Below, in pieces: positions 43,227-62,072 of a DNA stretch of 64,000 nt. The notes under the pieces were generated by a model that did no database searches, was not told where the DNA came from, and worked only from the letters and a program-made list of their open reading frames with translations. Both the position numbers and the translations under genes were made by a program. This DNA comes from Halapricum salinum (GTDB lineage: Archaea > Halobacteriota > Halobacteria > Halobacteriales > Haloarculaceae): NCBI RefSeq assembly GCF_004799665.1, contig NZ_CP031310.1, positions 240,887-304,886 of the forward strand, read 5' to 3'. The stretch's first letter is position 1, and the number at the start of each line of letters is the position of its first letter.

Positions 43227-45200
43227 ATGGGACAGACACTCACGGAAAAGATCCTCTCCGATCATCTCGTCGAAGGTGAACTCGAACCCGGCGAGGAGAT
43301 CGGGATCGAGATCGATCAGGTCCTCACGCAGGACACGACAGGAACTCTCGTATGGCTGCAGTTCGAGGCGCTCGGCCTCGAAGAGGTCCAGACGGAACTC
43401 GCAGCGCAGTACTGTGACCACCAGACCTATCAGTTCGACTTCAAGAACACGGACGACCACCGCTTCCTCCGCTCTGCGGCGGGCACGTTCGGCGCGCACT
43501 TCTCGCGACCCGGCAACGGTATCTGTCACAACGTCCACAAGGAGAACTTCGCCGCCCCCGGCAAGACGATGCTCGGCAGCGACTCGCACACACCGACTCC
43601 CGGTGGTCTGGGCGAACTCGCCATCGGTTCGGGCGGACTGGACGTCGCCGTCGCGATGGGTGGCGGCGCGTACTACATCGATATGCCCGAGGTCGTCAAC
43701 GTCCGACTCGAAGGCGAACTCCCCGAGTGGGCGACCGCCAAGGACGTCATCCTCGAGATGCTGCGCCGCCTCTCCGTGAAGGGGGGCGTCGGCAAGGTGC
43801 TCGAATACACCGGCCCCGGCGTCGAGACCCTCTCGGTGCCCGAGCGAACGACGATCACCAACATGGGGACCGAACTCGGCGCGACCTCCTCGATCTTCCC
43901 GACCGACGAGAAGACCAAGGACTACCTCGCCCGACAGGGTCGCGAGGATGCCTTCGAAGAGGTCGGCCCCGACGAAGATGCAGAATACCACGACGAGATC
44001 GTCGTCGACCTCTCGGAGCTCGAGCCGCTCATCGCCGAGCCGTCGATGCCCGACAACGTCGTCCCCGTCCGCGAGGCCGCGGGCCAGGACGTCGAGCAGG
44101 TCATGATCGGCTCCTGTACCAACGGTGGCTACGAGGACATCCTCCCGGCCGCGAAGATGCTCGAAGGCCGCGAGATCGACAAGAAGACCGAGATGATCGT
44201 CGCGCCCGGCTCCAAGCAGGCGAGCGAGATGCTCGCACGTGACGGCTGGGCCGCCGAACTGATGGCCGCCGGGGTCAACTTCTCCGAATCCACCTGCGGT
44301 GCCTGTATCGGGATCGGCCACGTGCCCGCAAGCGACTCGGTGTCACTGCGGACCTTCAACCGCAACTTCGAGGGCCGCTCGGGTCTGGAAGACGACAACG
44401 TCTACCTCTGCTCGCCCGAGGTCGCAGCCGCCGCGGCGCTCGCCGGCGAGATCGTCGACCCGCGCGACCTGGCCGACGAACTCGGCGACCTCGACGCACC
44501 CGGCTTCGAACTGCCCGACGCCTACGACGGCTCGAAGGCCGACCTCATCGCGCCCGACGAGGCCGTCGACGACGGGCTCGTCAAGGGGCCGAACATCGGT
44601 GACGTGCCGCTGAAGGACCCGCTCGACTCCAAGCTCGAAGGGCCGACCCTCCTGAAGATGGAGGACAACATCACGACCGACCACATCATCCCGGCGACAC
44701 AGGACATCCTGATGTACCGGTCGAACATCCCGAAACTCTCGGAGTTTACCCTCTCGCGGGTCGACGAGAGCTTCGCCGACCGCGCACTGGAGAGCGACGG
44801 CGGCTTCCTCGTCGCCGGTGAGAACTACGGCCAGGGCTCCTCGCGTGAACACGCGGCCCTCTGTCCGATGTTCCTCGGTGTCGAAGGCGTGCTCGCCCAG
44901 AGCTTCGCCCGGATCCACAAGGCGAACCTGTTCAACTTCGGCCTCCTGCCCCTGGAGATCGACGAGGACACCTACGCGAAGATCGAGCAGGGCGACGACA
45001 TCGAAATCGTCGACGACGTCGCCGAGGCCGTCCGCTCCGGTCAGGAAGAGTTCACCATCCGCGTCAACGACGACTGGGAAGCGACCGGCCACCTCGACGC
45101 CTCCGCTCGCGAGCGCGAAATCCTCGCAGACGGTGGCAAACTGTCGCACACGAAAAAGCAGTACGAGCAGGAAGACGGCGCGACGCCCGCTGACGACTGA
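43227..45200 (+). CDS. acn: Aconitate hydratase
   Basis: 657 aa, full length. Converts citrate to isocitrate in the TCA cycle. Motifs: SDSHTPTPGGLG, IGSCTNGGYED and ESTCGACIGIGH (the three Fe-S cysteines), and the swivel-domain FLVAGENYGQGSSREHAAL. Promoter: TTTATAT at 43193-43199 about 30 bp upstream, giving a nearly leaderless RNA. The stop lies inside the first unit of a 35-nt tandem repeat. Confidence 0.97.
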   Translation: MGQTLTEKILSDHLVEGELEPGEEIGIEIDQVLTQDTTGTLVWLQFEALGLEEVQTELAAQYCDHQTYQFDFKNTDDHRFLRSAAGTFGAHFSRPGNGICHNVHKENFAAPGKTMLGSDSHTPTPGGLGELAIGSGGLDVAVAMGGGAYYIDMPEVVNVRLEGELPEWATAKDVILEMLRRLSVKGGVGKVLEYTGPGVETLSVPERTTITNMGTELGATSSIFPTDEKTKDYLARQGREDAFEEVGPDEDAEYHDEIVVDLSELEPLIAEPSMPDNVVPVREAAGQDVEQVMIGSCTNGGYEDILPAAKMLEGREIDKKTEMIVAPGSKQASEMLARDGWAAELMAAGVNFSESTCGACIGIGHVPASDSVSLRTFNRNFEGRSGLEDDNVYLCSPEVAAAAALAGEIVDPRDLADELGDLDAPGFELPDAYDGSKADLIAPDEAVDDGLVKGPNIGDVPLKDPLDSKLEGPTLLKMEDNITTDHIIPATQDILMYRSNIPKLSEFTLSRVDESFADRALESDGGFLVAGENYGQGSSREHAALCPMFLGVEGVLAQSFARIHKANLFNFGLLPLEIDEDTYAKIEQGDDIEIVDDVAEAVRSGQEEFTIRVNDDWEATGHLDASAREREILADGGKLSHTKKQYEQEDGATPADD

Positions 45201-45270
45201 CCTGTCGTCAGCCGGCAGCGCCCTCCGACGACTGAATTGTCGTCAGCCGGCAGCGCCCTCCGACGACTGA
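45192..45270 (+). repeat. 35-nt tandem repeat, 2.3 copies, at the end of acn
   Basis: Unit 1 is 45192-45226, unit 2 is 45227-45261 and the first 9 nt of unit 3 follow. Units differ by two bases. Each starts GACGACTGA and holds TGTCGTCAGCCGGCAG, so GACGAC and GTCGTC can pair as a hairpin within a unit. The acn stop codon is the TGA of unit 1. A terminator or slipped-strand duplication is likely. Confidence 0.85.
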
Positions 45271-45576
45271 TCTGAGACGAAAGGTACTGACCTCGCAGGT
45301 CCTGTAATTAGATACCGACGCCGTTTTTTCACAGACGAGAACACGTTAGCCGCTGCCGATTTTCGTGTCGTGACTCACGTGCTGGACGTGGCAGTGGCTG
45401 GACGATCAGTACACAGAAAACGGGTAGAGAGGGGGTGGGGGGTGTTGGGGTGGCACCCAAAACTGGGTGCAACTCAGTCTTGGCCGCCGATATTTAAGAA
45501 CTTTGCGGCCAACGTGGCGGAGTCCGTGACTTTCAGGGACAATAGCCATATATTTCGAGAGGTTCAACTCCCTCCT

Positions 45577-50315: not shown

Positions 50316-50372
50316 GAGTACCTAACTATTTGCCCACGATAGTTATTCAAGAATATACTAGAATTGTTTGGC

Positions 50373-51338
50373 ATGGCAGATTCCGGCATCGACTCAGATA
50401 TCGACCAAGAGGTCGACGAACTGGAAGAGAACATCGACCGAGACGCGGGCTACGACCACGAGGCGGCCAGCGAGATCCAGACGTCGATCGCCAAACTGGA
50501 GAACTCCTCGGTCGAGATCGCCGAGCGAGCCGACTACATCAAAGACCTGACCGCCGAACAGTACACGGGGATGGACAAGGTCGCGAACGAGGTCTCGAAC
50601 CTCAGTGCGGCCATCGAGGAGGTTGCCTCCTCGACCGAGGAGGTTTCGGCGTCGAGCCAGGAAGCCGAACGACTGGCCGAGCGTGGGCAGGCGGCCGCCG
50701 ACGAGACGATCGACGTGATGGAGTCGATCAATGACGCCTCCGACAGCGTCAGCCAGGACGTCAGGACGATCCAGCGCAGCGTCGAAGAGATCGACGAGGT
50801 CGTCGAGATCATCAACGACATCGCCGACCAGACGAACATGCTCGCGCTCAACGCCTCGATCGAGGCCGCCCGTGCCGGGGAAGCCGGCGAGGGCTTCGCC
50901 GTCGTCGCAGATGAAGTCAAGTCCCTGGCCGAGCAGGCCCAGCAAGAGGCATCGCGGATCGAAGGGATGGTCGCCGACATCCAGGACGACACTGACAACG
51001 CCGTGCGCAGTTTGGAAAAAAGCAACGAGCAGATCGACCGCGGGATCGACACGGTTGGAGAAGCCATGGAGATCCTCGAATCGCTCGGCGAGGCCGTCCA
51101 AGAGATCAACGCCGGAATCCAGGAAGTCGCGAGCGCCACCGACCAGCAGGCCGCTTCCGCTGAGGAAGTGGCGAGTATGGTCGACCAATCGACGATGAAC
51201 GCCGAGGAGATAGCGGACGAAGTCGAGGACGTCGTCGAGGAGATCGACGATCAAACCGGACAGATCGTCGACGTCAACCAGGCTGTCGACGAACTGGTCG
51301 ACGATCTGCAACGCAATGCAGTAACTGCTGACGACTGA
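50373..51338 (+). CDS. Soluble methyl-accepting transducer (Htr-like)
   Basis: 321 aa from the ATG at 50373. No membrane segment, HAMP or sensor domain is visible: nearly the whole protein is an acidic coiled coil with the highly conserved tip [19 protein letters not shown] and [15 protein letters not shown], which binds CheA/CheW. So it is a cytoplasmic chemoreceptor-like signaller, with an input that is either short (first about 60 residues) or another protein. A/T-rich promoter just upstream. A block of repeated hairpins follows. Confidence 0.9.
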
Positions 51339-51340
51339 GT

Positions 51341-51540
51341 TGTCGACGGCCGGCTCGCGAGCAGTCTCGTCTGCGAGCAGTCCAGCCGGGAGACCTGAAT
51401 TATCGACGGCCGACACGACTGCGCGTTCATGCGCAGTCAGTCCAGCCGGGAGAAGCATTGTCGACGGCCGGCTCACGAGCGCTCCCGTGCGCGAGTAGTC
51501 CAGCGGAGAGCAGCAGTGTCGACGGCCGACTCGTGAGCCG
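51341..51540 (+). repeat. Repeated hairpins with conserved flanks and changing stems
   Basis: About 3.5 units of roughly 58-61 bp. Each unit starts TGTCGACGGCCG (or TATCGACGGCCG) and ends AGTCCAGCCGGGAGA (one unit lacks a base). Between them each has its own stem: the second is perfect (GACTGCGC-GTTCAT-GCGCAGTC), the first and third are different in sequence but still fold. Conserved edges with covarying centres point to selection for structure. It may be a terminator array or a binding platform. Confidence 0.8.
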
Positions 51541-51648
51541 ATTCTCTCAAGTGACTCTCACGCCCGTAGAGCTATATCGACTGCTGGGAGTCGGTCTGGT
51601 ATCGATGTCTCGAACGATACATACTCCATGTCGCCGCGGTGAGCGCCG

Positions 51649-52401
51649 ATGACGAACCTCGCGATCGCCGGCTTTTTCGCCGTGTTCGCGGCCCTGACAG
51701 GCTACGGGTTCGTCAGCCAGCGGCGTCGCACCCGTCGGATGGCCGAGACCGAGACCACTCGCTCCGATCAGGTGCTGGAGGGACTGGTCGAACTGAAAGG
51801 CACGGTTCGGGCCCGCGAGACCGTCCGTGATCCGCTCTCGAACGACGAGGCGGTGCTGGTCGACTGGGAACTCACGAAGCAGGAGCTGGACGCCGACGGC
51901 GATATCCAGGACCGGACGATCGCGAGTGGTCGCCGCGAGGCCGTCTTCGACCTCGAAGACGAGGGCGGCACGATCCGCGTCGATCCCGAGGGCGCGACGC
52001 TCAAGATGTCTGGGTCGAACCGGCACAAAGAGACGCTACGAGGCCACGACGATCGGCTGACGAGCCTCAGAGAGGGAACCGAGAGCGATCAGGGCGGCAC
52101 CGAGCGGGCCGGCGTCTCGATCCGGGCCGACGGCGTCAGCACCCTGATCGACTTCGACACGGACGACCGGCGGACCTATCGCGCGGAGACGCTCACACCC
52201 GGCGACGGCGTCTACGTCCTCGGGACGGCGACGCGAGACGGGGAGGAGACAATCGTCGGCAGGGGCGACACCCGCGGCAAGTACTTCCTCTCGGATATGA
52301 GCGAGGCGGAGCTGTCGGACACCTTCGCGAGCAACCAGTTGCTGCTCGGCGTGATCGCGCTCGGCTCTGCCGCCGCGATGGTCTGGTTCCTGCTGCCGTA
52401 G
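51649..52401 (+). CDS. GIDE-like two-helix membrane protein
   Basis: 250 aa. An N-terminal helix (AIAGFFAVFAALTGYGF) and a C-terminal helix (LLLGVIALGSAAAMVWFLL) frame a soluble beta-rich domain; the ending YFLSDMSEAEL before the second helix fits the GIDE/E3-ligase-like transmembrane family without a RING. Function in archaea unknown. Alone after the hairpin repeats. Confidence 0.75.
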   Translation: MTNLAIAGFFAVFAALTGYGFVSQRRRTRRMAETETTRSDQVLEGLVELKGTVRARETVRDPLSNDEAVLVDWELTKQELDADGDIQDRTIASGRREAVFDLEDEGGTIRVDPEGATLKMSGSNRHKETLRGHDDRLTSLREGTESDQGGTERAGVSIRADGVSTLIDFDTDDRRTYRAETLTPGDGVYVLGTATRDGEETIVGRGDTRGKYFLSDMSEAELSDTFASNQLLLGVIALGSAAAMVWFLLP

Positions 52402-61205: not shown

Positions 61206-62072
61206 TCACCGGGCCCGATACCGGCGATAGGCTGTCAGTGACGCCAGAGCGACCAACAGCAATATGAGCAGTCCCACGGCCCGCGTCGCATCGAGACTGC
61301 CGATCTCTGCGGGGAACCCACCGGAGTCGTCGTCGGTCGTCTGTGACTCGACCGGGTCCGTCGTGGAGTCGGTCGGCCCGACCGTGGTCGTCACGCTACT
61401 CGGCGGCCCCGTGGGTCCGTTTCCGGCCGTGGTGGTGACAGTCGGCTCTGGCGTCGGTTCCGGGGTCGGTTCCGGCGTCGGCTCTGGTGTTGGTTCCAGC
61501 GTCGGTTCCGGCGTGGGCGTGGGCGTCGGCTCTGGTGTTGGTTCCGGCGTCGGCTCTGGTGTTGGTTCCAGCGTCGGAGTCGGCGTTTCCTGTTCGACGT
61601 GAACAGTGAACCCGGAAACGCTCTCGACGTCGTGTTCGCCACGGGTGTCGACGAGGAGGCCGACGGCCACAGACTCCGCCGGCGACAACTCGATCATGTT
61701 CGTCGGCCCTTCGAGACTGTCGGCCGGATCGTCGTCGTGATAGAATCGGACGTCTTCCGCGTCGTCGGAGATCCAGATCCGCGCCGTCCCGGTTCCAGTA
61801 TTCGTGATCGTGAACACGCGATGGAGCGGCGTCCGCGAGCCGTCGGCGATACCGCCGCCGTCGAGATCCGGATTCGCACTGGAGAGCATGAGCTCGATCT
61901 CGCCCGCGTCGTTGATCACCGCATACCTGCCGTTTTGTCCGTCGGCCGGCGACATCTCGATGTCGACCTGATCGACGTCGTCGGTCCCCATCGACAGCGG
62001 GACCGCTCCCGTCGAGACGAGCATGGCTGTCGAGGCGACGAGCGCGGCGACGAGGAGGACAGTTCGGGTCAC
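61206..62072 (-). CDS. Exported PT-repeat protein (DUF1102-like)
   Basis: 288 aa, GTG start. Signal peptide LLVAALVASTAMLVSTGAV, then a beta domain with FTITNTGTGTARIWISDD, as in DUF1102/camelysin-like proteins, then a Pro-Thr-Glu repeat (EPTP units, about 165-218), likely cell-wall spacer or glycosylation site, and a C-terminal membrane helix with RRYRAR tail. Probably processed by the SipW-like enzyme next door. Confidence 0.85.
   Translation of the reverse strand: MTRTVLLVAALVASTAMLVSTGAVPLSMGTDDVDQVDIEMSPADGQNGRYAVINDAGEIELMLSSANPDLDGGGIADGSRTPLHRVFTITNTGTGTARIWISDDAEDVRFYHDDDPADSLEGPTNMIELSPAESVAVGLLVDTRGEHDVESVSGFTVHVEQETPTPTLEPTPEPTPEPTPEPTPTPTPEPTLEPTPEPTPEPTPEPTPEPTVTTTAGNGPTGPPSSVTTTVGPTDSTTDPVESQTTDDDSGGFPAEIGSLDATRAVGLLILLLVALASLTAYRRYRAR

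Follow-up and report, generated by a model that had tools for sequence, protein, structure and literature searches.

A probably mobile, REP-like hairpin repeat restricted to one haloarchaeal genus and often arrayed behind stop codons

Bacterial REPs are moved by transposases of the Y1/RAYT family. The REP/BIME elements, which fall into the GTAG and CGTC superfamilies, can form clusters of singletons or dimers repeated in tandem together with flanking DNA; because they lie mostly 3' of coding regions, with GTAG termini that often supply the stop codon, they provide a precedent for the placement of the array described here (PMC3733652). This array was found in a window of 64,000 nucleotides (the whole stretch of DNA analyzed) from a haloarchaeal chromosome of 3.45 Mb that is assembled as one contig. 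The array probably represents one copy of a REP-like mobile repeat that is confined to the genus, has no coding capacity, and is non-autonomous. The dispersal of the unit, its uneven copy number, and the presence of empty sites in relatives lead us to this reading rather than to that of a terminator or a fixed small-RNA gene.

The array (positions 51341 to 51543; Table 1) consists of three complete hairpin units and a cut-off fourth, with start-to-start distances of 60, 58, and 58 nt, and begins 2 nt past the TGA of a gene for a protein with an MCP signaling domain. The original prediction of a hairpin array with constant edges and changing stems was accurate, with units 2 and 3 deviating slightly: the left edge, TGTCGACGGCCG, is identical in units 1, 3, and 4 and reads TATCGACGGCCG in unit 2, and the right edge, AGTCCAGCCGGGAGA, is identical in units 1 and 2 and reads AGTCCAGCGGAGAG in unit 3, unit 4 having no right edge. 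The inner stems of these units do vary and still pair, as had been claimed. The units stand out from chance, with a Tandem Repeats Finder score of 189, and 20 more arrays are present in the genome.

Table 1. Positions of the hairpin array, its parts, and the neighboring genes in the window
Feature	Position	Strand	Description
Upstream gene, MCP signaling-domain protein (chemotaxis-transducer-like)	50364..51338	+	PF00015, E 2.1e-48
Docking flank GACGAC-TGA-GT	51330..51340	+	Two final Asp codons, stop codon at 51336-51338, and 2 nt before unit 1
Hairpin unit 1	51341..51393	+	Inner stem GC-GA-GCAG / CUGC-GA-GC, with a tandem GA/GA internal loop
Spacer, units 1/2	51394..51400	+	
Hairpin unit 2	51401..51453	+	Inner stem paired throughout, GACUGCGC / GCGCAGUC
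Spacer, units 2/3	51454-51458	+	
Hairpin unit 3	51459..51509	+	Inner stem AC-GA-GCGC / GCGC-GA-GU; right edge imperfect
Spacer, units 3/4	51510-51516	+	
Unit 4	51517..51543	+	Cut short after some 23-27 nt
Downstream same-strand gene, weakly GIDE-like membrane protein	51649..52401	+	PF12483, E 5.6e-11

Each unit is an irregular hairpin of about 54 nt (53 columns in the profile model). The outer part of the consensus comprises GUC/GAC, an internal loop GA/GGA, CGGC/GCCG, GG/CC, and an internal loop CUC/AGU, and the inner part comprises a six-base loop on a stem that in 52 distinct units contains a tandem GA/GA loop and in 15 is paired throughout. Folding-energy z-scores for the four window units are -0.93, -3.49, +0.73, and +1.77, with -0.65 for the whole array. 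Thermodynamic folding by itself is unexceptional in this GC-rich DNA, and the structural claim rests on covariation, not on folding energy. Unsupervised mutual information computed on the units of the host genome placed the inner-stem pairs 18-37, 23-32, and 24-31 within the top four column pairs. Pairing holds in 88.5% of the cells of 28 units, against 25 to 41% when the strands are slid out of register, and double changes number 35 where shuffling gives 8.5. In a larger set of 69 distinct units, drawn from five species of the genus and including 37 distinct inner stems, 93.3% of cells are paired over 15 pairs. The covariance analysis that had been proposed as a check gave 96.9% pairing for the six inner pairs, against 9 to 61% when slid, and 99 double-change cells (shuffled mean, 28; maximum, 44), although the units are related paralogues and covariation p values are therefore nominal. 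At the closing pair 3-53, 43 of the 51 distinct units of the host genome have T-A and 16 of the 18 units of relatives have A-T, a compensatory change between species. Since pairing has been kept through strong compensatory change across the 69 units, selection acts on the hairpin structure, and this part of the original prediction is borne out. Wobble cells in the inner stem are G.T in 34 cases and A.C in 8 (48 versus 42 over all pairs), which favors the given strand as the folded one, the asymmetry being confined to the inner helix. The tandem GA/GA loops prompted us to consider a kink-turn (L7Ae) site; this candidate is excluded by the fully paired class of inner stems and by the pairs flanking the loop, in the sense that no canonical kink-turn register is present.

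A DNA search of the host genome recovered the window unit at many sites, and a profile search of the stretches retrieved put the total at about 66 units, some of them partial, in 21 dispersed arrays, each with 1 to 5 units set head-to-tail. The conserved edges, for which a genome search had been suggested, are thus not peculiar to this locus, the same unit being found in 21 arrays, nor is covariation lacking. Searched with a covariance model (R1), five genomes of the genus yielded 60, 16, 5, 2, and 2 units, and the sixth (G004; relatives are designated G001 to G005) yielded none at E <= 0.001. Outside the genus, no convincing unit was recovered from 76 genomes at the family level or 243 at the order level (77 genera sampled), the family's other genera giving two single matches near E 1e-4 that are weak and have no supporting array. 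Within this sample the element is restricted to the genus, none being seen in the genomes of the order's 76 other genera. A search of plasmids gave zero matches. Viral contigs were also rejected: they contained 53 single pattern matches, of which three had E < 0.1 by the covariance model, and the best of these (L148; E 2e-6) falls within what looks like coding sequence, has a GC content of 77% in its matched part, and was treated as a chance match. Weak model matches in the host genome and in G004 were also set aside, lying within apparent coding sequence.

For eight array loci, the ends of the orthologous genes were compared in up to five relatives, and all of those that could be read (31/31) are without a unit. 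At one of these sites (L015), G002, G003, and G004 have the same gene downstream, so that only the array is missing. In four relatives, the orthologue of the window's MCP gene ends in GACGAC plus a stop codon with the array absent, and therefore the docking sequence belongs to the host. Filled and empty versions of the same orthologous site, a feature of mobile elements, are thus both present. The sole shared site lies upstream of hemL, where four relatives have arrays and the host genome has a decayed pair of units; in G004, only the first few bases are in common. Since this site is common to five species, some of the family is old and could be functional. In the host genome (L024), the decayed array at hemL is followed by a partly repeated tRNA-like sequence and then by an apparent tRNA gene. 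Arrays also look like rearrangement breakpoints when L030, L031, and L032 of G001 are compared with L033 of G005 and L034 of G002: hemL, the array, and dhaK are contiguous in G005, hemL-array and array-dhaK are separate loci in G001, and the gene past the G001 array in L032 is the gene past the hemL array in G002.

In 13 of the 21 arrays, the first unit begins 2 to 5 nt past a stop codon that belongs to a gene on the same strand (ten arrays at exactly 2 nt, two at 3 nt, and one at 5 nt), and several of the 21 are not behind any stop codon. All three kinds of stop codon are found upstream of arrays, and the functions of the upstream genes are unrelated. Seven of these 13 genes have GAC as their last sense codon, compared to 8 of 86 mechanically called long ORFs. 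A stop-motif pattern, GAYTRANNTGTCG, had nine matches in the host genome, versus three for its reversed control, and is only mildly informative, since the bases concerned vary among arrays. We know of no precedent for so fixed a distance from the stop codon. The position might, however, be set by selection and not by insertion bias, were the hairpins host 3'-UTR elements recruited to stabilize, process, or terminate the upstream mRNA. The 13 arrays behind same-strand stop codons are in line with such a role, as are the inner-stem wobbles that favor the mRNA-sense strand and the termination of 59% of transcripts by a hairpin in a Haloferax volcanii reporter (PMC7237163). We nevertheless regard it as unlikely, given that orthologous genes lack arrays, that several arrays lie away from stop codons, that the upstream genes are functionally unrelated, and that the T-run, the main intergenic termination motif in Haloferax (PMC7237163), is missing. 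No terminator-like site was found at 51341-51543, with no T-run after the hairpins, and Rfam yielded no family at the gathering score (best, SorX, with 17.1 bits against a cut-off of 46.6). As the arrays are also not conserved at orthologous genes, which weakens the case for a fixed terminator or small-RNA gene, none of the roles first suggested for the locus (terminator array, small-RNA locus, or protein-binding RNA) is supported. An RNA effect after insertion is possible, and a side effect in the 3' UTR is plausible because of the termination by a hairpin in Haloferax (PMC7237163).

The spacers provide information on how the arrays grow. Spacers agree at 7.2 of 9 positions within arrays and at 4.4 of 9 between arrays, and the flank before the first unit matches the spacers of its own array at 6.2 of 9 positions, versus 4.5 of 9 for those of other arrays, a likeness reached by none of 5,000 permutations. 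The right-most unit covers 50 or fewer of the 53 model columns in 11 of the 18 multi-unit arrays, the left-most in only 1 of the 18. Truncation therefore falls mainly on the right-hand units, so that the left end is fixed and the right end ragged, and since the spacers also copy the array's own left flank, the arrays look polar. Judging from these alignments, the growth pattern would fit either left-end insertion with duplication of the flank or local duplication with gene conversion; no clean target-site duplication was seen on the right side of the arrays. Copying of the sense RNA by target-primed reverse transcription was rejected, as it predicts left-end truncation, the opposite of what is observed, and so was en-bloc copying of whole arrays, no unit order shared between arrays being apparent by eye. 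Spacers that copy the local flank could also have arisen purely by slippage, as local tandem duplications at gene ends prone to forming hairpins, with gene conversion keeping the units alike and with no true mobility; unrelated short tandem repeats likewise occur behind stop codons in the genus (L100; aconitase). This explanation is highly unlikely, because one and the same 53-nt unit is found at 21 unrelated sites and is missing at their orthologues, and slippage alone cannot seed new sites. We also think it improbable that dedicated machinery of a new archaeal kind targets the stop codon itself, building polar arrays 2 nt behind it without a Y1 transposase. If it did, each new hairpin would join at the fixed left end, with the stop-side flank being duplicated as the spacer, and the oldest units would decay on the right.

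According to the REP-like mobile-repeat reading, which we prefer, the single strand that corresponds to the mRNA of the upstream gene would, once folded, be the substrate of a putative trans-acting enzyme, which would set units at short targets such as GAC-stop, where they may be harmless for the host. Arrays could then extend from their fixed left end, each round of insertion or each local duplication copying about 8-10 nt of flank, and gene conversion could reshuffle the units. The hairpins would join the 3' UTR of the host gene, any effect on the mRNA being secondary. We found no mobilizing enzyme: Y1_Tnp (PF01797) is absent from the host genome, control genomes being positive, and mobilization by a RAYT was rejected on these grounds. 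The enzyme must therefore be outside the Y1 family or have been lost since. Y1 transposases do occur in relatives G001, G002, G004, and G005 (five in G004), and the host genome has TnpB-like genes, as might be expected if the units were PATE-like remnants of IS200/IS605-type elements, with fused ends bearing near-terminal palindromes and with the TnpA present earlier or elsewhere. Haloquadratum has many such transposase-free PATEs from IS605-type elements, some of only 52 bp (PMC3119063). However, the 11 TnpB-like loci of the host genome showed no convincing unit-like end (best E 0.026), the array-richest species has no Y1 transposase, and G004, with its five, has no arrays, leaving such an origin distinctly doubtful.

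Several related or similar short repeats were also observed. In the window, the 3' end of the aconitase gene carries a distinct but related 35-nt tandem repeat (45184-45274; 2.6 copies) that runs from the stop codon, with the part behind that codon at 45198..45274 on the + strand; its units read TGA-N2-TGTCG, like those studied here, and can form the hairpin GACGAC-TGAATT-GTCGTC, whose loop holds the stop codon. The aconitase 3' end of G002 (L036 / L188) has three copies of a 33-nt tandem repeat, TGTCGACCGGCAGTCCAGCCGGGAGACGAGTAG, equivalent to the studied unit without its inner stem, and that of four other relatives has no repeat. In G003 (L100), a MATE-like gene is followed, right after its stop codon, by a 34-nt tandem repeat that is unrelated in sequence, yet has GACGACTGA and GTCG. 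A shorter hairpin, TGTCGACGGTCGGCTGAATTGCCGACCGTCC, beside or among full units at L035 and L019 is another reduced form. Gene ends in the genus seem prone to gaining such repeats. Elsewhere in the window (61441-61586), a nested 24/36/72-nt tandem repeat is probably a Gly/Ser-rich coding repeat.

If our reading is correct, archaea gain a REP-like repeat family with a fixed distance from the stop codon and with spacers that copy its own insertion flank. As the mobilizing enzyme is outside the Y1 family or lost, the genus offers a clean comparison (60 versus 0 copies) for an enzyme search. Many genes would have acquired an identical, very stable structured 3' UTR, allowing a direct test of how 3' hairpins affect archaeal mRNA.

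Set against known systems, the element resembles REP/BIME in being a short, extragenic, multicopy hairpin repeat with constant parts and varying stems that is unevenly distributed between related species. It differs in being archaeal, in its length of about 54 nt (20-40 in REPs [PMC3733652]), in forming only head-to-tail multi-unit arrays where REPs form mostly head-to-head dimers, and in that neither unit edge bears an unpaired GTAG or CGTC in the unit alignments; furthermore, whereas the Y1/RAYT genes of GTAG-type REPs are flanked by the repeats, the host genome has no such gene. On the three features tested, namely, tag, array orientation, and Y1/RAYT gene, the element falls outside the REPs. 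Like intrinsic or clustered-hairpin terminators, it places hairpins directly past stop codons on the mRNA strand, but it lacks a T-run, forms one dispersed sequence family, and is absent at orthologous genes. PATEs share palindromes with IS605-type transposons, and no convincing sharing of this kind was seen at the 11 TnpB-like loci of the host genome. Nor does the element match SMRs, which insert into other elements and bear conspicuous terminal inverted repeats; the unit has only a 3-bp closing stem, GTC/GAC. With both the PATEs and the SMRs of Haloquadratum walsbyi (PMC3119063), it nonetheless shares a haloarchaeal host, a tiny size, a non-coding and multicopy nature, the lack of a target duplication, and mobilization that would occur in trans or by undescribed means.
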